Assembly (NCBI GenBank): GCA_030650395.1
Contig: JAUSDY010000006.1
Location: 1 to 52,976, forward strand
Direction of reading: 5' to 3'
Origin: Acidobacteriota bacterium
GTDB lineage: Bacteria > Acidobacteriota > Vicinamibacteria > Vicinamibacterales > UBA2999
Length of the DNA stretch: 52,976 nt
The notes beneath the pieces are model-generated. The model saw only the letters and a list, made by a program, of their open reading frames with translations. It was not told the origin of the DNA and made no database searches. Each line of letters opens with the position of its first letter. The first letter of the stretch is position 1. The position numbers and the translations under genes are program-made. Positions 675 through 51,754 of this stretch are shown here, one piece after another.

Positions 675-5901
<5,227 letters not shown>

Positions 5902-5905
<4 letters not shown>

Positions 5906-8568
5906 CGTTTCAGCCCGGCCGTCCAATTGATCAGCACGTGAAACGGCGACGTGGTTTCGCCGACGGGCGTAATCATAAGAAACCGCTGCCCGTCCGCCGT
6001 GACGGCGTACTGGTGAATGAGTGGCTGGACGTTGATCCGCGTATGAAAGAGCGGCGAGGGAACGCCGATCGGCCGTCCGTTTCGCATCGCCACCGCCGTC
6101 AGCGTACCGTCGAGGGCCAGGTAGAACAGCTCCTTGCCGTCGCGCCGCCACTGCGGTTGACCGCCGCCCTCCGACGACAGGCGCAACTTGTCGCCCGCCT
6201 GCGGGAATCGCTCGACATAGATCTCGTAGCGGCCCGACTCGTCCGCCACGTAGGCCAGCCACTGAACATCCGGGGAAAACTGTGGCTCGTCCTTGAATGC
6301 CGGCGCGTCGAGGAAGACGAACGGCTTGCGGTCGCCGAACATCGGCAGGATTTCGAGCCGCCGGTGCGTCGCATTCACCGAGACGATATACCGGCCGTCG
6401 CTCGACCAGTCTTCCGGCCATTTGCGCTCTGCCGACTGCAGCAGGGTCGTCACCGCTCCGCCGGCCAGCAACTTGTGAAAGATCCCGAGACCGTCCTTGC
6501 CGTCCGAGGCATACACGAGTGCCGTACCGTCGGGCGACACGATCATGTTTTCTTCGTTGTCCGAGCTGGGCGTGAGGCGCGTGCTGATCCCCCGGGCGAC
6601 GTCAATCTGCCAGATACCGCGCTTGCCGCTCTGGGCGTCGACCCGCTCCGCTATGACCTGGTCGCCGGCGCGGGACAGAACGAACTCACGGTAGGTCGCG
6701 CTCTCGCCCATCGTTCCGAGCGGTTTGCCGGTGCGATCGAACCACGCCAGCTGCGTCACCGCGGCGGTCGACGTCCGATAGATGAGCACGTCGTTGTCCG
6801 AGACGGAAAACAACATCCGCGCGCCAGGCGTCGTCACGTGATCCGCGATCATTACCGGCTCGCTCACGATGCGCCGCCGGGCGGCGTCAAACGGCTGCGC
6901 CAGCAGCGCGCCGCCGCGACCGAAGACGAGATATCCTGGCGGCGCGTACTGGGCGGGCGAGTCGGCCTCGATCAGCCGCGCCTGGTCGGATGACTGCAAC
7001 GCGCCGACGTACTCCGCGTTCTCCGGCTGCGCGAAATAGATGAAGTGCGTGCCGTCGGGCAGGAACCATGGCGACCGATACGCCGTGTGCCCGCGCGAGC
7101 GGTCGAGTGCGACGACGGGCTCGGGCTGCCCGCCTGATGCCGCGACCCGTGCCAGAGCGCCGTCGCCGGTCGTGAACAGGATGACGCCGTCGCGATTCCA
7201 AGTGCCCCCTGAGGCGTTGGGCGCATCGCAGATCGTGAGAGGCGGCGCCGCGCTGACGACGTCGAGTTTTTTGAGCTTGCCCTGATCAAAGAACGCGATC
7301 GTTCGGCCGTCCGGCGACCAGAACGCGGTGTTCACGCCGGTCGTGCCAGCGAGCGGCCGCGCCTCGAGCGTGTCGAGCGATCGAACCCACAACTGGTTGC
7401 CCGTGCCCAGTATGAAGGCGCCACCGAACAGGACGCGGCGTCCGTCCGGCGAGACCACGCTCGCGTTCCAGGCTTCCGGCGAGTGTGTTGGCGGCGCGAT
7501 CGTAAAATGCACGGGCGGTGCGTCCGACGACAGCGGTGTGGTTCGCAGCGCGAGGACAATCGCGGCCGCGCCGAGAGCGCACACCGCCGCGAGCCACGCG
7601 ATCCGCTCACGCGTGCGGCTGGTGCTGCCACCAGCGCGCAGGTGCCACCCTGATCGCGCGTCAGCGGCATTCGCCACACCCGCGCTCGAAGAAAACGCAG
7701 ACTGGGCATCGTCGATCTCGATGCGCACCGTGGCGGCGGAATCGAGTCGGCGCTTGGGATCCTTCTCCAGGCTTCGCCGCAGCACTCGGTGGATGCCGGC
7801 GGGCACCGCGCGCGGCAGGGTGCTCCAATCGGGGTCCTTGCTGACGACCGCCACGATCGTGTCGGTCGCATCGTCACCTGCAAATGGGCGCCTGCCCGTA
7901 AGCATCTCGAACAACACGCACCCGAGCGACCAGATATCGGACCGCTTGTCGACGAACCTGCCGCGGGCCTGCTCGGGGGACATGTATGCGGCCGTGCCGA
8001 GAATCACGCCGGCCGCGGTGGCGTGGATCGACAGCGTCGGCGAGTTCATCGCATCCGCGGAGCCCGGAGCCCGGTTCCCGGAGCCCGAATCGATCGCCTT
8101 CGCCAAACCGAAATCGAGCACCTTCACCGTGCCATCAGGGCGAACCTTGATGTTGGCGGGCTTCAAATCGCGATGGATGATGCCGTGATCGTGCGCGGCT
8201 TCGAGCGCTTCGGCGATCTGCCGCGCGATCGGCAGCGCCTCGTCGAGCGGGATCGGTCCCCGTGCGATGCGTTGCGCGAGATCTTCACCTTCGACCAGTT
8301 CGAGCACCAGCGCAGTGATCCCGCCAGACTCTTCGAGCCCGTGGATGTGGGCGATATTCGGATGATTGAGCGACGCCAGCACCTGCGCTTCGCGACCGAA
8401 GCGGGCGAGGCGATCGGGATCGTTGGCCACCGCGGGAAGCAGGACCTTGATCGCGACGTCGCGATTCAGCTTGGTGTCGCGGGCGCGGTAGACTTCGCCC
8501 ATGCCACCGGCACCCAGCGCCGAGATGATTTCATACGCGCCGAGGCGCGTACCGGGGGATAAGTTGAT
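5902..8568 (-). CDS. Serine/threonine kinase with TolB-like propeller; non-standard start codon
   Basis: First gene of the kinase operon. The family N-terminus (NLSPGTRLGAYEIISALG) is encoded upstream of the first in-frame ATG (8502), which lies after the glycine loop and would remove it. No ATG, GTG or TTG occurs between the upstream in-frame stop and 8502; the codon where Met is expected is ATC at 8568-8566. From there the protein is 888 residues. Motifs: glycine loop [17 protein letters not shown] Lys41, [28 protein letters not shown], one transmembrane segment (WLAAVCALGAAAIVLAL), then a propeller with SPDGRRVLFG and SPDGRTIAFF. A TATAAT box ends 6 nt upstream of the ATC, predicting a transcript that begins at the start codon. 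ATC initiation, sequence error or a damaged gene are all possible. Confidence 0.88.
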
Positions 8569-8574
8569 GGGCGG

Positions 8575-8602
8575 ATTATAGGCGGGATTGGCTGCTCGCC
8601 AA
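8575..8602 (-). promoter_or_regulatory. Sigma-70-type promoter of the kinase operon, predicted leaderless
   Basis: Minus-strand TTGGCG (8602-8597), a 16-nt spacer and a perfect TATAAT (8580-8575). With the usual 6-7 nt from the -10 box to the +1, transcription would begin at about 8568, the first base of the inferred start codon. Confidence 0.6.
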
Positions 8603-8647
8603 CCGCCATCGTTTCACGAGCGTAAGGGTGCAATTCAGCACAGGTGC

Positions 8648-43662: not shown

Positions 43663-46476
43663 ATGACGATTGTTCGGCGGACTCTCTTGTTCGCGTGCAT
43701 GGCCCTGCTGTTGGGCGCCCCCCTTGCCCACGCGCAGACGACCGGTTCGATTACGGGCAGCGTGACCGACGCGAGCGGCGCGGTGTTGCCGGGCGTGAGC
43801 ATCACGCTCAGTGGTGACCGCCTGATCGGTGGCCCACAGACCCAGGTGACGGACACCAGCGGCACCTACCGTTTCGATCGCCTCGTCCCGGGCTCCTACA
43901 ACGTCAAGTTCGAGTTGCAGGGATTCCGCACCGTAGATCGGCCCGACGTGCGCATCAACGCGGCGTTTGTGGCCACCATCAACGGCAAGATGGAAGTCGG
44001 CGCGGTGAGCGAGACCATCACCGTCACCGGCGAATCGCCGACCGTTGACGTGCGCTCGAACGTGCAGCAGACGGTGATGAACCAGGAAATCCTGGAAGGC
44101 ATCCCGACCGGCCGCGATCCATGGTCGCTCGCCAAGCTGATCCCCGGCGTGCAGGTGGCGACGTATGACGTCGGTGGCACGCAGTCGATGCAGCAGAGCA
44201 GCATGTCGGCGCACGGTTCCAACACTGCCGACGTCAGCTACAACATCGACGGCGCCACGGTGAACTGGCCGGGGGGCGGCGGCGGCGCGACGATGATCTA
44301 TTACGACCAGGGCATGTTCGAAGAGGTCAACTACATGACCTCGGCGATCCCCGCGGAGGTGATGGCGGGCGGCGTCTCGATCAACATGGTGACCAAGGAC
44401 GGCGGCAACGTCTGGAGGGGCAACCTCCGCTACAACTTCGCCAACGACGATCTGCAGGGCGAGAACTGGGCCGCTACCCAGCAGCTCAATCCGAACTTCC
44501 GTGGCAACCCGACCATCAAGACTTACGACATGAACCTGTCGGGCGGCGGCGCCATCGTTCAGAACAGGGTCTGGGTCAACGGCACCGTCCGCCGGTGGGT
44601 CGTCAACAAGTTCGTCAGCAACCTGAACCCCGACGGCACCCAGGCGATCGACGACAACACCTTGAAGAACTACTCCGGAAAGGTCGTGGCGCAGCTGACG
44701 ACCAACAACAAGATCTCGGCGGGCTACTTCTGGAACGACAAGATCCGCGGCCACCGCCGCGACGGTAGTAACCGCATCCCCGACATCGCGTCGGTCCACC
44801 AGATCAACCCGGTGCAGACGACGCAGGCCAAGTACACGGGCATCAGAGGACCGCTCGTGTTCGAGTCGAACTTCAGCGTCATGGACGGCGTGACCTGGTA
44901 CACCTACCAGAAAGACACCACGCCCGACGCCATCCGCAAGATCGACTCCGGCCTGGCGGAAGTGTTCTTCGCCTCGGATCGTGAGGATCGCCAGCCGAAC
45001 TCGCGCACCCAGTTCGACAACGTGTTCACCTTTGGCAAGACCGGTCTGGGTGGCGAGCATCTGATGAAGGCCGGCGTGCAGTGGGCCCGCCTCTACTACG
45101 AATCCGAGTACTCGGTGCTCGGCGATCACCACCTGGTCTACAACAACGGCGTGCCGACCTCGGTGTTACAGTTCAACACGCCGACCAACCCGCGGAACGT
45201 CGCGAAGGTTCTCGGGCTGTTCTTCCAGGATTCGTGGTCGATGAACCGCCTGACGCTCAACCTCGGCGCCCGCTACGACAACTACGTCGGCACGCTGCCC
45301 GAGCAGTCGAATCCCGCCGGCCGGTTCATCGGTGCGCGGAGCATCCCTGAGACGGAAGTGATCAACCAGGCCAAGGGCGTGGGGCGTCTGGGCGCGGCGT
45401 ACGATTTGACCGGCACCGGCCGCACCGCGGTGAAGGCCAGCTACAGCCGCTACGGGCTGCAGGTCGGCATCGATCGCGTCACCAACCTGAACCCGCTGTC
45501 CAACGGCTCGCGCTCGTGCCCGTGGACCGATCCGAACCGCGATGGCCGCTTCACGGAGTCCGAAGTGAACGTCGCGCAGTGCTCGGGGTTTGGCGGCGGC
45601 GTCAACACCCGCTATGCCGACGGCATCCGCTGGCCCTACTCGGATGAGATCACGGCCGGCGTCGAAACGCAGCTCCCCGGCGCGGTGCGCATGGGTCTGA
45701 TGTTCTACTACCGCACCAACCGCGATCAGTTCGGCCAGAGGAATGTGGCGGTGCCGACCGGTACCTACACGCAGCACACGGTCAACGTGCCGAACGGTCC
45801 GGGCGGAACGGTGGCGAATCCGAAACCGACGACGGCGACTGTGTTCAACCTGGCCCCGACACTGACCAGCGCGCAGGACCTGGTGCGCGACAACGTCGAC
45901 TACCTCGATACCGAATACAAGGGGATCGAATTCACCGCCACCAAGCGCTTCACCCAGCGGTGGCAGATGCAGGCCGGCTTCACGATCGGCAAGAACGAGG
46001 GCGGCGTCTCGGGCGGCAACGACCTCAACGACCCGAACAACACGCAGTTCCCGACGGGCATTATCGGCAACGACTCCGAAACGGCGTTGCGGATTTCGGG
46101 TAGCTTCGAGCTCCCGGGCCGCATCAGCCTCTCAGGCTCCATGATCGCCAACAACGGCTACCCGTACGTGACGACCTACAACCTGACGCGCGCGTTGGCG
46201 GCGGCCCAGGGCATCGCCCTGATCCGCGCCAGCCAGACTGTGACGCTCAGCAAGCGCGGCGACGAGCGCTACGAAAACGTGACGATGGTCGACCTGCGGC
46301 TGTCGCGCCGGTTCCGGTTCGGCAGCCGCAGCTTCCAGCCGGAGATCAGCTTCTTCAACGTCAGCAACGCCGACACGGCGACCAGCCACACGACCGGTAT
46401 CGGCGCCAACTACCTCAGGCCGACCGAGATCCTGGCGCCGCGCACCATCCGCGTCGGCTTCAGCCTTAACTTCTAA
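43663..46476 (+). CDS. TonB-dependent receptor, Oar-like, with carboxypeptidase-regulatory N-terminus
   Basis: 937 residues from the ATG at 43663, preceded by GGAGG; the upstream open frame is a shadow. Signal peptide RRTLLFACMALLLGAPLAHA. A carboxypeptidase-regulatory-like domain (about 28-110) has GSITGSVTDASGAVLPGVSI, SGTYRFDRLVPGSYNVKFEL and ETITVTGESPTVDV. The plug (about 115-235) has IPTGRDPWSLAKLIPGVQV and SYNIDGATV; the barrel then runs to a terminal aromatic strand, RTIRVGFSLNF. Such receptors are abundant in Acidobacteriota and are thought to import oligosaccharides or peptides with TonB energy; the ligand is unknown. A strong terminator follows. Confidence 0.92.
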   Translation: MTIVRRTLLFACMALLLGAPLAHAQTTGSITGSVTDASGAVLPGVSITLSGDRLIGGPQTQVTDTSGTYRFDRLVPGSYNVKFELQGFRTVDRPDVRINAAFVATINGKMEVGAVSETITVTGESPTVDVRSNVQQTVMNQEILEGIPTGRDPWSLAKLIPGVQVATYDVGGTQSMQQSSMSAHGSNTADVSYNIDGATVNWPGGGGGATMIYYDQGMFEEVNYMTSAIPAEVMAGGVSINMVTKDGGNVWRGNLRYNFANDDLQGENWAATQQLNPNFRGNPTIKTYDMNLSGGGAIVQNRVWVNGTVRRWVVNKFVSNLNPDGTQAIDDNTLKNYSGKVVAQLTTNNKISAGYFWNDKIRGHRRDGSNRIPDIASVHQINPVQTTQAKYTGIRGPLVFESNFSVMDGVTWYTYQKDTTPDAIRKIDSGLAEVFFASDREDRQPNSRTQFDNVFTFGKTGLGGEHLMKAGVQWARLYYESEYSVLGDHHLVYNNGVPTSVLQFNTPTNPRNVAKVLGLFFQDSWSMNRLTLNLGARYDNYVGTLPEQSNPAGRFIGARSIPETEVINQAKGVGRLGAAYDLTGTGRTAVKASYSRYGLQVGIDRVTNLNPLSNGSRSCPWTDPNRDGRFTESEVNVAQCSGFGGGVNTRYADGIRWPYSDEITAGVETQLPGAVRMGLMFYYRTNRDQFGQRNVAVPTGTYTQHTVNVPNGPGGTVANPKPTTATVFNLAPTLTSAQDLVRDNVDYLDTEYKGIEFTATKRFTQRWQMQAGFTIGKNEGGVSGGNDLNDPNNTQFPTGIIGNDSETALRISGSFELPGRISLSGSMIANNGYPYVTTYNLTRALAAAQGIALIRASQTVTLSKRGDERYENVTMVDLRLSRRFRFGSRSFQPEISFFNVSNADTATSHTTGIGANYLRPTEILAPRTIRVGFSLNF

Positions 46477-46481
46477 CGAAG

Positions 46482-46510
46482 AAGGCAAAAGGCAGAAGGC
46501 AGAAGGCAAA
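46482..46510. repeat. GGCAGAA / GGCAAAA word repeat
   Basis: GAAGGCAAAAGGCAGAAGGC then AGAAGGCAAA: four copies of a 7-nt word between the TonB-receptor stop and its terminator. Confidence 0.65.
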
Positions 46511-46546
46511 AAGGGCGCGGCACCTTCGGGTGTCGCGCCTTTTCTT
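46511..46546 (+). terminator. Intrinsic terminator after the TonB receptor
   Basis: Stem GGCGCGGCACC (46514-46524), TTCG tetraloop, GGTGTCGCGCC (46529-46539), then TTTTCTT. Eleven pairs including one G-U. The clearest rho-independent terminator in the window. Confidence 0.85.
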
Positions 46547-46567
46547 CAGACAGGCGATCGACGAATC

Positions 46568-47040
46568 ATGAAATGGTTTCTACGGGCCGCCGTCGTGTTG
46601 GTGGCCGCCTACATCCTGTTGGCCGGGGCCGTGACCGCGGCCATGCTGCAACCGCCCGAGCGGTTCGGCCAGATCATGAAGGCACGTGCCTGGGGCGGTG
46701 GTGTGGGGCGTGCTGCCCGGCCCGCGCCTCTGGTTGTGGGCCCGCCGCGGCGCGCTAGTCGAGGGTCAGCCGGCACCCGACTTCACGTTGCCGGCCTACG
46801 ATCATTCAGGCCGCGTGACGCTGTCGTCGCATCGCGGCCAGCGGCCCGTCGTGCTGGTGTTCGGCAGTTACACGTGACCGCCGTTCCGCCGGGCGGTGCC
46901 CGCGCTCAACGAGTTGTACAGGCAGTATCAAGATCGCGTCGCGTGCTACGTCGTCTACATTCAGGAAGCCCACGCGATACCCGTTCGGGTTCAAGCCGGC
47001 AGAGGTTGAAGGTGTGTTGAAACGGCTGGCGCCGAACTAA
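46568..47040 (+). pseudogene. Deiodinase-like (DIO/thioredoxin-fold) gene with in-frame UGA, frame-disrupted
   Basis: Three frame segments form one gene. 46568-46681: membrane segment FLRAAVVLVAAYILLAGAVT and ERFGQIMK. One extra G at 46681/46682 shifts the frame; without it the next residues are HVPGAVVWGVLPGPRLWLW, then EGQPAPDFTLPAYDHSG and RPVVLVFGSYT. Then UGA (46875-46877), then PPFRRAVPALNELYRQYQDR and VVYIQEAHA. FGSxT-U-PPFR and VYIxEAH are hallmarks of the iodothyronine deiodinase-like family, whose active-site residue is selenocysteine or cysteine, exactly at this UGA. After EAHA a further frame gives YPFGFKPAEVEGVLKRLAPN to the stop at 47040; about 60 family residues, including the usual EAHPxDGW continuation, are missing. 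As assembled the gene is disrupted twice besides the UGA. Confidence 0.8.
46890..46902 (+). promoter_or_regulatory. Candidate bacterial SECIS hairpin
   Basis: CGGGC (46890-46894), loop GGT (46895-46897), GCCCG (46898-46902). The loop starts 17 nt after the UGA and has G in its first two positions, as the commonly used bacterial SECIS model expects (about 16-37 nt). In GC-rich DNA such hairpins also arise by chance. Confidence 0.4.
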
Positions 47041-47053
47041 CCACCTATTTCGT

Positions 47054-47059
47054 TACGAT
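47054..47059 (+). promoter_or_regulatory. Candidate -10 box (TACGAT) for CRTAC1 gene
   Basis: TACGAT ends 5 nt before the GTG start at 47065; predicted leaderless. Confidence 0.4.
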
Positions 47060-47064
47060 AGGCC

Positions 47065-48792
47065 GTGCCTTCCCGATGGCCTCGTGTGTTCGCGCTTCTT
47101 CTGACGGCGGGCTGCTCGGCCGACAGCGGTGGAAGCGGCGCGGCGAATGATCCCGGCCGCGGCGGCGACGAGTGGTTCACAGAGCGCGCGCAGGAGACCG
47201 GCCTCGACTTCGTGCATTTCAACGGCGCATCAGGACGCTTCTACTATCCGGAAATTCTTCCACCTGGCGTCGGGTTGTTCGACTACGACAACGACGGCGA
47301 TCTGGATGTCTACCTGGTACAGGGGCGAAGGCTCGGCGCGGACCAGTCGTCCGACACGCCTGGCGCGGGAGCACTCAAGGGCCGCTTCTACCGAAATGAT
47401 CTGCGCGTGAACGCCGACGGCACGCGGCATCTGCATTTCACGGATATCACCGGCAAGAGCGGGATCGACGCGACTCAATACGGTCTTGGCGTCACCGCGG
47501 CCGACGTCGACAACGACGGCTGGGTCGATCTCCTGCTGACGAATTTCGGAACGAACCAGCTGTTTCACAACAACAGCGACGGGACCTTCACGGACGTCTC
47601 GAAGCCGCGCGGCATCGAGGACGATTCGGGGCGCTTCGCAGTGTCGGCGGCGTTTCTCGACTACGACCGAGACGGATGGCTGGATCTGTATGTCGCCAAC
47701 AATGCCAACTACACGCTGCAGAACGAAACGGTTTGCCCCAACATGGCGGGTGCCCGCGACTATTGCCCTCCGCAAATCTACGGGGGCCAGCCGGATCGGC
47801 TGTACCGAAACCAGGCGGGACGATTCGTCGATGTCAGCACGAAGGCGCTGGCCGGAGGAAAGTTCGGACCGGCCCTGGGCGTCGCCACCGCCGACTACAA
47901 CGGCGATGGCTGGATCGACATCTACGTCGCCAACGACGGCGAGGCGAATCTGCTGTGGATCAACCAGCGCGACGGCACCTTCCGTGAAGCGGCGCTGCTC
48001 GCGGGAGCCGCTTTGACCGAAGAAGGAAAAGCCGAAGCGAGCATGGGCGTGGACGCCGGAGACTTCGACAACGACGGCGACGAGGACCTCGTCATGACCG
48101 AGCTGACGGGCCAGGGATCCAACCTGTATGCCAACGACGGGTCCGGCATTTTTCGCGACGTCAGCGCGGCGTCGGGGCTCGGTCAGTTGAGCGTGCCGTA
48201 CACGGGATGGGGCACCGCCTGGTTCGACTTCGACAACGACGGATGGCTCGACATCCTCTCGGTCAACGGGACAATCGTCGCCGCGTCCGGCCGCGGCGCG
48301 GAAGCGTTTCCGTACGACCAGCGCAAGGTGCTGTTCCGCAATCGGCGCGACGGACGGTTCGAAGACGTGACAGGCCAGGCAGGCGCGGTGTTCGAGCTGT
48401 CGGAATCCGGCCGCGGCGCGGCGTTCGGCGATATCGACAACGACGGCGATGTCGACGTCCTCGTCGGCAACGACGGTGGTCGCGTTCGCTTGTTGATCAA
48501 CAACTCCGGCAACCGGAGTCACTGGCTTGGGATCCGCCTGGTGGGGCCAACCGGCCGCGACATGCTGGGCGCGCGCGTCGAAGTAATTCGTGGCGGCAGC
48601 CCGACGATCTGGCGCCGCGCACGGTCTGACGGCAGCTACGGATCGGCGAACGATCCGCGCGTGCTGGTGGGCCTTGGCACGGTGACCGATACACCCACAG
48701 TCCGGGTGCACTGGCCCGACGGCCGTGCCGAAGCATGGTCAGGCGTCGCCATCGATCGATGGATGACGATGAGAGAAGGCAGTGGCCGGTGA
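47065..48792 (+). CDS. CRTAC1-family FG-GAP/VCBS repeat lipoprotein with ASPIC/UnbV domain
   Basis: 575 residues from a GTG start. Lipoprotein signal PRVFALLLTAGC. Seven calcium-binding DxDxDG loops mark VCBS/FG-GAP blades of a beta-propeller: DYDNDGDLDVYL, DVDNDGWVDLLL, DYDRDGWLDLYV, DYNGDGWIDIYV, DFDNDGDEDLVM, DFDNDGWLDILS and DIDNDGDVDVLV. The C-terminus (HWLGIRLVGPTGRDMLGARV to VRVHWPDGRAEAWSGV) is the ASPIC/UnbV domain. Surface-exposed, probably binding a ligand or matrix; the function of the family in bacteria is not settled. Its stop overlaps the TPR gene start (GTGA), giving a coupled three-gene operon with the TPR and DsbA-like genes. Confidence 0.92.
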   Translation: MPSRWPRVFALLLTAGCSADSGGSGAANDPGRGGDEWFTERAQETGLDFVHFNGASGRFYYPEILPPGVGLFDYDNDGDLDVYLVQGRRLGADQSSDTPGAGALKGRFYRNDLRVNADGTRHLHFTDITGKSGIDATQYGLGVTAADVDNDGWVDLLLTNFGTNQLFHNNSDGTFTDVSKPRGIEDDSGRFAVSAAFLDYDRDGWLDLYVANNANYTLQNETVCPNMAGARDYCPPQIYGGQPDRLYRNQAGRFVDVSTKALAGGKFGPALGVATADYNGDGWIDIYVANDGEANLLWINQRDGTFREAALLAGAALTEEGKAEASMGVDAGDFDNDGDEDLVMTELTGQGSNLYANDGSGIFRDVSAASGLGQLSVPYTGWGTAWFDFDNDGWLDILSVNGTIVAASGRGAEAFPYDQRKVLFRNRRDGRFEDVTGQAGAVFELSESGRGAAFGDIDNDGDVDVLVGNDGGRVRLLINNSGNRSHWLGIRLVGPTGRDMLGARVEVIRGGSPTIWRRARSDGSYGSANDPRVLVGLGTVTDTPTVRVHWPDGRAEAWSGVAIDRWMTMREGSGR

Positions 48793-50369
48793 AGCGACTG
48801 GCCGCGATCATCGGCGCATTGGTGCTTCTGGCCGGCGGCTGCAGCTCTCGAGAGGATCGGGAACCGCCGTTGAAGCCGGTGTCGCTGCCCGATCTGTCGA
48901 AAATGACCGCGTCGGCGCAGAAGCAGATTCGCGAGGCGCACGGATCGCTGACCAAGACCATCGAGAAGCACGAGGCCGCGCCGGCCAAAGTCGCCGAAGC
49001 GTACGGCACCTTGGGACGAATCTTCATGGCCGCCGATCAGACCGACGCGGCCGAACCCTGCTTGCTCAATGCCCAGACGCTGGCGCCGTCCGACATCCGC
49101 TGGCCCTACTATCTGGGGCACCTGAACCGCGACCGCGGCCAACTGCCGGCCGCGGCGGCGTTCTTCGAACGCGCGCTCGAACTGCGGCCGGATGACCTGG
49201 CCTCGCTCGTCTGGCTCGGTGACATCTATCTGGCATTGGGGCGGCCGGACGATGCCGAGCCCCGATTCGCGAAGGCGCTGGCGCTCCAGCCCAACTCGCT
49301 GTCGGCGCGATTCGGCCTGGGGCGCACCGCGTTGGCGAAACAAGACTACAGCGCTGCGGTGACCCACCTCGAAGGCGTGCTGGCCCAGGATCCTGAAGCG
49401 GCCGGAGCGCACTATCCGCTGGCGATGGCGTACCGCGGCGTGGGAAAACTGGACAAGGCCGACGCGCACCTGCGGCAGCGGGAAGATCACGTCATCCTTC
49501 CAGCCGATCCGTTGATGGTGGAACTGGAAGAACTGCTGGAGAGCCCCCAGGCCTACGAGTCCCGGGGCATTCGCGCGCTCGACCGGAAGGATTGGACCGA
49601 GGCGGCCACGCTGTTCCGCAAAGGTTTGGCGATCGCACCCGACAATGCCGCCCTTCATCACCGGCTGGGTACGGCGCTCTACTTGATGGGAGACGGCGCC
49701 GGCGCCCGCAACGAGTTTGAAGCCGCCGTGCAGGCCTCCCCGGATTACCACCTGGCGCAGTACAGTCTCGGCGTGCTGCTGCAGGCGGACGGCCGCCACG
49801 CCGAAGCCATCGATCGGTTTACCGCGGCCGTGCGATCGCGGCCCGGCGATACGGCTGCGCGTGTCCGCCTCGCGGCCAGCCTGCGGCGAATCGGGCGCGC
49901 GAAGGATGCGTTGTCTCATTACGAGCAAGTCGCTGCCATGAACCCCGATCTCACAGAAGCGCGGTTCGGCCATGCGATCGCCTTGGTCCAGATCGGGCGG
50001 CATCGCGAGGCGCGGGACCGCTTGACCGAGGGGATGAAGGCTGATCCCCATTCCTCTCTGTTTGCCCACGGACTCGCGCGCTTGCTGGCCACCGCTCGCG
50101 ACGATCGGATACGCGATGGCCAGCGTGCGATGACGCTCGTGCAGGACCTGCTCAAACAGGGCAGAACGCTCGATTTAGGCGCGACGATGGCGATGGCCCT
50201 GGCGGAACTGGGGCAGTTCGCGCAGGCGGCGACCGTCCAGCGAGACCTGATCGCGGCCGCCGAGAAGGCCGGCCTTCGCGACATGGTGGCGCGCCTGACC
50301 AGGAATCTCGGATTGTACGAACGCGGCGAGCCCTGCCGCACGCCGTGGACGGCGGACGAGGTGCCATGA
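48789..50369 (+). CDS. Tetratricopeptide-repeat lipoprotein
   Basis: 526 residues from a GTG at 48789 (VKRLAAIIGALVLLAGGC, a lipobox); the frame extends slightly upstream. At least ten TPR units fill residues about 70-500, for example AEAYGTLGRIFMAADQTDAA, AAAFFERALELRPDDLASLV, AALHHRLGTALYLMGDGAGA and SHYEQVAAMNPDLTEARFGH, with the usual W/L-G-A-F-A-P spacing. It probably scaffolds a protein complex at the inner leaflet of the outer membrane. TPR partners directly after CRTAC1 genes are common in Acidobacteriota and Planctomycetota, so the two probably work together. GTGA and ATGA overlaps couple it to both neighbours. Confidence 0.9.
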   Translation: MKRLAAIIGALVLLAGGCSSREDREPPLKPVSLPDLSKMTASAQKQIREAHGSLTKTIEKHEAAPAKVAEAYGTLGRIFMAADQTDAAEPCLLNAQTLAPSDIRWPYYLGHLNRDRGQLPAAAAFFERALELRPDDLASLVWLGDIYLALGRPDDAEPRFAKALALQPNSLSARFGLGRTALAKQDYSAAVTHLEGVLAQDPEAAGAHYPLAMAYRGVGKLDKADAHLRQREDHVILPADPLMVELEELLESPQAYESRGIRALDRKDWTEAATLFRKGLAIAPDNAALHHRLGTALYLMGDGAGARNEFEAAVQASPDYHLAQYSLGVLLQADGRHAEAIDRFTAAVRSRPGDTAARVRLAASLRRIGRAKDALSHYEQVAAMNPDLTEARFGHAIALVQIGRHREARDRLTEGMKADPHSSLFAHGLARLLATARDDRIRDGQRAMTLVQDLLKQGRTLDLGATMAMALAELGQFAQAATVQRDLIAAAEKAGLRDMVARLTRNLGLYERGEPCRTPWTADEVP

Positions 50370-51754
50370 GGGGAGCACGAATGTTTGGCGTGGCCCGCGC
50401 ACTCTGGCTCGTCGCCGCCGCGGTCCCCGCGACCGCCCAGCCCGCTATTGCCCCGCAGCTCGCCGTGACGGGCGCCGTCGCCGATGTCAACGGCCTGACG
50501 ATTACCGGCGTGAATTTCGGAACCGACCCGTTTGTGACACTGGATCTTGTTCCGTTGACGCTTCGCAGCGCGGCCGACAAGCAGATCTCCGCGGTGGTGC
50601 CGGTCAGCGCGATGCCGCCCGGCGACTACCTGCTCACCGTCAGCCGTGGACCGGCTCCGTCCGAGAACGGATCGTTCCAGTTGACCCTCGGCGCAGCCAA
50701 ACCGAAGCCGCTCGAAGTGGATAAGGGTACTCCGGGCGCCCGAGCGACCGCCGCGCCCTCAGGCGCGGGCGCTGAACCCGCCGTGCAGGTCGGCGACCGT
50801 GTCATCAGCGTGGCCGAAGTCGATCGCGAGTGGCAACGGACGGATCCCGCTAGTTACATCGCGCTAAGCCGGCAGATGCACGAGATGCGGCGGCGCATTG
50901 CCGATACGCTCGCGGCCGACGAACTGCTGGCCCGCGAGGCGGCCGCACGCGGGCTGACGACCGAGGCGCTGCTCAAGCAAGAGATCCCGAAGCGCGTGAT
51001 CACGACGCCCGACTCCGCGGTGCAATCGCTCTACGAAGGGCTCGGCGATCACGCGCGCGGCGCCACACTGGAGCAAATAAGGCCGGCGCTGCGCGCGTGG
51101 CTGCAGAAGATCACCGAACCAGAACTGGCGAAGATGGCATACCTCGAAGAGCTGATGAAAGTCTCAACGCGCGTCGAGAACTTTCTCGTGGCGCCGAGGG
51201 TAGCGGTTGAACGTACCGCGCAGGATGCGGTCCTTGGACCCGCGACGGCGCCCGTCGAACTGGTCGCGTTTGGGGACTTTCAGAACACCGAGTACGCGAG
51301 ATTCGCTCGCTCGTTCGGCCGGGTTCGCGACACGTTTGGCGATCGGCTGCGACTGGTGTTCAAGAACCTGCCGACGCTCGGTCCATCGTCAGTGGCGGCC
51401 GCCGAAGCCGCGCAGTGCGCCCTGTCACAGGGCAAGTTCTGGCCGTATCATGACGCGCTCCTGGTGCCGCAAGGCATCGCCGGCGCCGCGCAACTCAAAC
51501 GGGTCGCGGCCGATCTGGGGCTCGACGCCACGCCGTTCGATGCCTGCATCGATCGCGGCGCGACGCGCGGCGTCGTGCAGCAGGCACTGGAGGAGGCGCG
51601 ACGATATGGCCTGCAGAGGAGCCCGAGCTTCCTGATCAACGGACGGCTGGCGCCCGATCCGCCGGCCTTCCTGCCGCCGTTCGATTACTTCAAGCGCCTC
51701 ATCGAGGAGGAGTTGGGTCTTCAGGCCCGGGCGGCTTCGCGGAAGCAACAGTGA
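50366..51754 (+). CDS. Exported DsbA-like protein lacking its CxxC, with TIG-like and SurA-like N-terminal regions
   Basis: 462 residues from the ATG at 50366 (ATGA overlap with the TPR gene); an alternative ATG lies at 50381. Signal peptide ARALWLVAAAVPATAQ. Residues about 20-110 resemble an IPT/TIG immunoglobulin-like domain (ITGVNFGTDPFVTLDLVPLT, VVPVSAMPPGDYLLTVSRG). Residues about 130-280 (VGDRVISVAEVDREWQRTDP ...) resemble a SurA/parvulin-chaperone N-terminal helical region. The last about 180 residues are a DsbA-like thioredoxin domain: PVELVAFGDFQNTEYARFAR, FKNLPTLGPSSVAAAEAAQC and GLQRSPSFLINGRLAPDPP (cis-Pro present). The usual F-x-CPYC active site reads FQNTEYAR, so both catalytic cysteines are gone. 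Probably a structural or chaperone role, not redox. Confidence 0.85.
   Translation: MRGARMFGVARALWLVAAAVPATAQPAIAPQLAVTGAVADVNGLTITGVNFGTDPFVTLDLVPLTLRSAADKQISAVVPVSAMPPGDYLLTVSRGPAPSENGSFQLTLGAAKPKPLEVDKGTPGARATAAPSGAGAEPAVQVGDRVISVAEVDREWQRTDPASYIALSRQMHEMRRRIADTLAADELLAREAAARGLTTEALLKQEIPKRVITTPDSAVQSLYEGLGDHARGATLEQIRPALRAWLQKITEPELAKMAYLEELMKVSTRVENFLVAPRVAVERTAQDAVLGPATAPVELVAFGDFQNTEYARFARSFGRVRDTFGDRLRLVFKNLPTLGPSSVAAAEAAQCALSQGKFWPYHDALLVPQGIAGAAQLKRVAADLGLDATPFDACIDRGATRGVVQQALEEARRYGLQRSPSFLINGRLAPDPPAFLPPFDYFKRLIEEELGLQARAASRKQQ

Follow-up and report, generated by a model that had tools for sequence, protein, structure and literature searches.

The window (the whole stretch of DNA analysed here, 52,976 nucleotides from an Acidobacteriota bacterium) carries a deiodinase-like gene (PF00837) at positions 46568-47040 on the forward strand of contig G000:C62, in which one protein is split into three pieces lying in three frames. 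The genome assembly (G000) is a draft of 5.41 Mb in 180 contigs with 98.4% completeness, and this gene is its sole PF00837 match at E-values up to 0.001; the match contains one TGA and scores 37.9 bits, above the cut-off of 27. The middle piece reads HVPGAVVWG...RPVVLVFGSYT-UGA-PPFRRAVPALNELYRQYQDRVACYVVYIQEAHA, which places the UGA at the catalytic column. The nearest relatives, L041 (also L029; genome G079) and L042 (also L027; genome G084), come from the same order, and their proteins are 76% and 71% identical to the middle piece, respectively. The features of the locus are the following:

46568-46681, + strand: N-terminal piece with a membrane-anchor helix, MKWFLRAAVVLVAAYILLAGAVTAAMLQPPERFGQIMK; 38 codons from ATG in the first frame, 71% identity to the start of L029 (E 2.5e-16)
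46681-46682, + strand: frame break, one extra G relative to intact relatives, from DNA alignments with L029/L041 and L027/L042
46683-46979, + strand: middle piece with FGSYT-UGA-PPFRR and YIQEAH, second frame; 76% identity to L029 (E 2.7e-56), 46.9 bits against PF00837 on its own with the TGA read as Cys
46875-46877, + strand: UGA at the selenocysteine (Sec) column; TGA in all of the best 80 of at least 581 relatives
46888-46905, + strand: predicted bacterial SECIS hairpin, with stem 46890-46894/46898-46902, loop GGU at 46895-46897, and lower pairs 46888-46889/46904-46905; covariation across 81 sequences
46976-46981, + strand: approximate deletion junction with a net 233 nt missing relative to L041 (705+1-473 nt) and the frame shifted again
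46981-47040, + strand: C-terminal remnant PFGFKPAEVEGVLKRLAPN with stop codon TAA, third frame; 67% identity over 18 residues to the end of L029 (E 8e-7)

With its three pieces in three frames, the window copy has no continuous frame from start through UGA to stop, and it is therefore filed as a broken rather than a working member of the family. A sequence-only reading of this DNA had already proposed a single extra G at 46681/46682 and a deletion after EAHA, and both are real relative to the intact relatives L041 and L042. The extra G directly precedes the middle piece, and the deletion (at about 46976) takes out one third of the gene. Neither lesion is a multiple of three, so both shift the frame; together with the loss of a third of the gene, this leaves the window copy unable to make the normal enzyme. 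Translation from the ATG stays out of frame with the UGA throughout and yields 150 residues, of which just the initial 38 resemble the family. The deleted part corresponds to approximately residues 138-214 of a structural model of L041 and includes several strands and helices (among them strands 178-180, 197-201, and 206-210), such that the complete thioredoxin fold found in L041 is missing from the window copy.

Over 135 codons, dN/dS is 0.21 between the window copy and L041, 0.34 between the window copy and L042, and 0.25 between L041 and L042. These values imply that most of the divergence arose under constraint and that the damage is either recent or artefactual. The value of 0.21 suggests that constraint on the window copy lasted until recently. 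The lesions and this ratio fit the earlier proposal of a decaying selenoprotein gene.

Comparative evidence at the UGA and its hairpin

Relatives were collected by a scan of public genomes that aligned the part of the protein following the UGA, which gave at least 581 confirmed relatives, of which the best 80 were kept. Because the query alignment excluded the Sec column, the scan did not select for TGA. The codon at the catalytic column is TGA in 80 of these best 80, all of which lie in assemblies titled Acidobacteriota, and similarity to the relatives runs on past the UGA, where the alignment to L029 continues. The sequence-only reading was thus right to place the UGA at an active-site position, to see coding similarity beyond it, and to look for Sec or Cys at this column in homologues. 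Its description of the UGA as a Sec codon stands for the conserved column, whereas in the window copy itself the UGA is out of frame with the start codon of the gene; barring assembly error at the lesions, it is therefore a relic and not a working Sec codon. In intact copies from related bacteria of soil, the UGA very probably encodes Sec, as judged from sequence conservation. A full-length frame is present in 77 of the best 80 of the at least 581 relatives by a length test; the other three (L046, L098, L102) are also interrupted, and such interruptions in draft genomes may in part reflect error.

Within the genome's own family, PF00837 occurs in one of 43 genomes, namely this one, with no match in the other 42 at E-values up to 0.001. 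It occurs in 18 of 193 genomes of the class (20 matches, 12 of them with one internal TGA) and above cut-off in 29 of 396 genomes sampled evenly across the phylum, where one TGA is found in 25 of the 36 matches and the other 11 are free of stops. The class members L031, L032, and L035 carry Cys at the Sec column.

Several further arrangements were observed among relatives. Two different Sec-TGA deiodinase-like genes occur in one genome twice among the best 80 of at least 581 relatives (L067 and L111 in RI_231; L075 and L097 in SRVP_11). Tandem deiodinase-like pairs occur in three genomes of the same phylum (L205:1280-2080 in G389, L206 on the minus strand in G403, and L207:1055-1934 in G494), in which the first gene carries Thr at the Sec column (FGSST-T) and the second carries UGA (GSST-UGA-PPY or -TPY). 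A conserved pairing of an apparently inactive copy with a Sec-containing copy would be odd. Finally, L198:8056-8450 (G104, same order) holds only the C-terminal part of the protein, from approximately AVGMAMYQQYRD onward, and a reading of about 550 upstream bases in all frames shows no FGSxT-UGA; it is either a second damaged relic in the order or a chimeric contig.

The hairpin CGGGC-GGU-GCCCG at 46890-46902 has the geometry that was claimed for it, with a stem starting at the 13th base after the UGA and a spacing of 17 nt between the UGA and the loop. The bacterial SECIS model permits a spacing of 16-37 nt (PMC13188914), and the loop GGU of the window thus falls within the published range. 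Taken alone, the hairpin is within chance. Folding of the single sequence gives a z-score of -0.15, no better than shuffled sequences, and, counting both strands, 187 of the window's 1362 TGAs are followed by a stem-loop that satisfies a simple rule. A search of Rfam over 46400-47300 (E up to 1) returned a single miRNA match far below its cut-off.

The weakness of the single hairpin is offset by comparison of the 81 aligned sequences, in 79 of which a five-pair stem can form. Columns 15 and 30 change together, as C/G in 39 sequences, G/C in 29, G/U in nine, and other combinations in four. Column 15 is the third base of codon +4, which nearly always encodes Arg, and column 30 is the third base of codon +9, which mostly encodes Ala. 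When 861 column pairs are ranked by mutual information, 15-30 comes first, 12-30 second, and 20-24 third; the second-ranked pair lies outside the stem and is taken as hitch-hiking. The loop-closing pair is A-U in 75 sequences, C-G in four, A-G in one (L056), and A-C in one (L072). The C-G pair is shared by the window, L041, and L042, and also by L097, which branches elsewhere in the tree. The Val codon that closes the loop is GTT in 73 of 78 Val-bearing relatives, compared to 180 of 1270 Val codons elsewhere in the same genes.

In a formal count over 77 distinct rows, 98.7% of 539 cells are paired and both sides have changed in 41 cells, while three of the seven stem pairs are invariant. At 0.203, the covariation score exceeds the shuffled mean of 0.073 and is reached by none of 500 shuffles, and shifted registers all score at most 0.052. 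Two of the five covariation measures do not rise above shuffles, namely double-change pairs (120 of 500) and further pair types (201 of 500). Since related sequences can beat shuffles without any structure, the shifted registers and the codon bias carry more weight here. The compensatory and largely synonymous covariation across 81 sequences thus marks the hairpin as a genuine bacterial SECIS, with a significance that comes from the alignment and not from the single hairpin. Among more distant class members the stems differ; L022, L023, L028, and L033 form a similarly placed hairpin whose loop is led by G, and L024, L025, and L026 adopt other folds when folded in isolation.

Genomic context and selenocysteine decoding

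The sequence-only reading named selA, selB, selD, and tRNA-Sec as genes to be sought in the same genome, and all but selD are present. The genome encodes selA (449 bits), selB above cut-off in one frame of 660 amino acids (361 bits with neighbors), and a tRNA-Sec scoring 65.9 bits against a cut-off of 47, to which ARAGORN assigns the anticodon tca. Decoding of Sec, as defined by selA, selB, and tRNA-Sec, is therefore represented in this genome. In contrast, selD was not found in the assembly, where the best matches resemble ThiL and PurM by names read from sequence.

All eight genomes of the same genus encode selD, each with one in-frame TGA. The sister gene row is mnmE-mnmG-rsmG-parA-parB-selD-atp genes, as read from translations in five of eight sister loci, where longer antisense frames hide some genes. 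In G000, contig C179 (13,381 bases) ends within mnmG and contig C85 begins in the atp genes. The intervening 6 kb of a sister genome (query 2566-8641) finds nothing but short matches in the rest of G000, most of them at one repeat and the longest of about 310 bases at 63%. By synteny, a gap of approximately 6 kb would hold the 3′ part of mnmG, rsmG, parA, parB, and selD. Because the contigs break where the sisters carry selD, its absence is best explained by an assembly gap, and calls of selD presence or absence from this assembly are unreliable. Loss of selD as a sign that Sec decoding is decaying across the genome was accordingly set aside, since the gap at the selD region takes in most of mnmG as well. 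The genome yielded no further selenoprotein gene; none of the six PF00384 molybdopterin-oxidoreductase matches has an internal stop, and a Sec-containing formate dehydrogenase, sought as the reason for keeping Sec decoding, was not found.

The origin of the gene was approached through a tree of 84 rows, consisting of the window, 77 of the 80 loci (the three broken loci were left out), and six class loci. The window copy, L041, and L042 cluster with support of 100/100, though there is little support (91/29) for placing either L041 or L042 nearer to the window copy. The trio sits among loci from Terriglobia, Bryobacterales, and other acidobacteria, far from L022-L026 and L028 of the same class. 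This placement of the trio, itself weakly supported, fits horizontal acquisition. The gene upstream of the broken copy is syntenic in six of eight sister genomes, and the deiodinase pieces have no match in any of the six sister loci; L195 is uninformative, ending 20 bases past the shared gene. Vertical inheritance at a fixed locus is unsupported, given the absence of the pieces from the sister loci and of PF00837 from 42 of 43 genomes of the family. The genes downstream in the window were not found near the two closest relatives, where the sole neighbor match is a partial one of 32% to the upstream gene, in L196.

Positions 47065-51754, downstream of the broken gene, encode an FG-GAP/ASPIC-UnbV protein, a TPR protein, and a SurA-like/DsbA-like thioredoxin protein, all in one direction. 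In tblastn at E-values up to 1e-5, none of these genes matches the five sister loci reaching beyond the shared upstream gene, and the segment may therefore be lineage-specific. Between the upstream gene and the broken gene lies a short AGAAGGCA/AAAAGGC tandem repeat (46480-46508), of which near-identical copies of 30-40 bases occur at many places in this and sister genomes, so that it is part of a dispersed intergenic repeat.

Protein fold and interpretation of the disrupted copy

The model of L041, with Cys at the Sec position, has a mean pLDDT of 91.6 and consists of an N-terminal helix (residues 2-26) followed by a thioredoxin fold. It is most similar to the animal deiodinases, with Z 21.9, rmsd 2.7, and 171 aligned residues for Dio2 (9h48), and Z 20.8, rmsd 2.5, and 169 aligned residues for Dio3 (4tr3). 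AhpE (Z 18.8, rmsd 2.1, 146 aligned) and ResA (Z 17.7) share the overall fold but are less similar than Dio2 and Dio3, both by fold and by profile; a profile of 32 of the 80 relatives matches mouse Dio3 at E 6.5e-30, Dio2 at 6.2e-28, and ResA-type thioredoxins at 2.7e-8.

Residues described around Sec130 of Dio2 are Ser127, Thr129, Tyr157, Glu160, His162, and Trp167 (PMC11592359). In the 32 aligned relatives, the positions of Ser127, Thr129, Sec130, Tyr157, Glu160, and His162 are invariant (32 of 32); Trp167 is kept in 31 of 32, and the one that departs is L041, the modelled relative. The active-site set of iodothyronine deiodinases (Ser/Thr/Sec/Tyr/Glu/His/Trp) is thus found in the relatives along with the fold. 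In contrast to animal Dio2 and Dio3, the second relay His (Dio2 His182) is found in none of the 32 relatives at the aligned column, which is mostly Pro, and the SECIS is of bacterial type and lies inside the gene. The Dio3 equivalent of Dio2 His182 is presumably His219. From sequence and model, the intact protein probably acts like a deiodinase-type selenolate reductase, and its activity is presumably that of a thiol- or halogen-type reductase. Specificity for thyroid hormone is unsupported since the second relay His is lacking, and thyroid hormone is not expected to be the substrate of the acidobacterial proteins.

Bacterial deiodinase-like proteins of PF00837 with Sec or Cys were reported from Sargasso Sea metagenomes in 2005 (PMC1088965), and bacterial deiodinase-like selenoproteins are listed in reviews, where their redox motif is given as UxxC (PMC9312934, PMC13188914). 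Because such proteins are already described, the gene in the window is a broken further example of a known family. It shares with them the catalytic UGA, a SECIS just downstream, and a thioredoxin-related fold, and differs in being interrupted; the acidobacterial motif U-PPF lacks the Cys of the reviewed UxxC. While both Sec and Cys forms exist in bacteria, the clade described here is acidobacterial, with Sec in all of the best 80 of at least 581 members. One acidobacterium with three selenoproteins is listed in work on deep-Sep, whose main text does not contain the word deiodinase (PMC12013277), and a term search of PMC5029168 returned neither deiodinase nor acidobacteria. As far as titles and the beginnings of abstracts reveal, no acidobacterial deiodinase-like selenoprotein was found in the literature.

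Taken together, 46568-47040 is probably a recently disrupted gene for a membrane-anchored, thioredoxin-fold, deiodinase-like selenoprotein in a Sec-decoding bacterium. In the intact relatives, SelB carrying Sec-tRNA(UCA) would bind the SECIS hairpin 17 nt downstream and thereby direct Sec to the UGA, and the inserted Sec would form the selenolate redox center in FGSYT-U-PPF. The window copy has kept the UGA, the SECIS, the catalytic motif, and both termini, but the extra base upstream of the UGA and the 233-nt deletion downstream scatter the protein over three frames and remove strands and helices of the fold. Ribosomes initiating at the ATG would never read the UGA in frame and would produce the 150-residue product with its 38 family residues. 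The lesions are presumably present in the living cell.

The main rival to recent disruption is assembly error, in which a living gene makes a full-length Sec-containing deiodinase-like protein and both lesions, the extra base and the 233-nt deletion, stem from misassembly or strain mixing. This is unlikely, with some points in its favor. The genome is a draft in 180 contigs, one of which breaks off within mnmG; neither the SECIS nor the catalytic motif is damaged, dN/dS is low, and three of the best 80 of at least 581 relatives likewise look broken. However, it calls for two independent lesions in one small gene, and an internal deletion of 233 nt is untypical of base-calling error. Moreover, the adjoining 2.9-kb upstream gene aligns to six sister loci as single pieces of 910-949 residues with no frame break, which indicates that the contig is not generally error-ridden beside the gene, and PF00837 finds neither a second copy nor the missing part elsewhere in the assembly (E up to 0.001).

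Far less probable is a shortened protein made from part of the frame, for instance through internal initiation past the added G or through a programmed frameshift that enters the UGA frame. That frame is open from 46680 to 47006 save for the UGA itself, but the product would lack either the membrane helix or the part of the fold at residues ~138-214 of the L041 model, with its strands and helices. A short form is also not a known feature of the family, since 77 of the best 80 of at least 581 relatives are full-length by the length test. The odds are slimmest for the UGA being the ordinary stop of a short gene with fortuitous similarity downstream. The chance-level behavior of the isolated hairpin is compatible with such a stop, yet similarity continues past the UGA, TGA is present in all of the best 80 of at least 581 relatives, synonymous sites covary as base pairs, and the Sec machinery is present; the TGA column and the covariation already contradict an ordinary stop. 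The earlier claim of a SECIS therefore holds through the compensatory changes in the 81 sequences, and is weak on the evidence of the window hairpin by itself.

Recent disruption of a selenoprotein gene has precedent, in that selenoprotein loss between sister bacteria has been described (PMC1794560). The locus in the window is apparently a worked case of selenoprotein loss in progress, in which a Sec codon normally taken for a stop was confirmed from raw sequence in an easily missed broken gene, and for which the relatives supply comparative SECIS evidence through paired, mostly synonymous changes. These relatives point to a large acidobacterial clade of Sec-containing deiodinase-like proteins. 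A more tentative possibility is that this clade is widespread and membrane-anchored, with Sec and never Cys among the best 80 of at least 581 members and the deiodinase active-site network kept, which would suggest selenium-demanding chemistry such as reductive halogen removal in soil. The window might then capture a lineage, perhaps a horizontal recipient, just after loss of the enzyme, with its Sec machinery and SECIS still intact.
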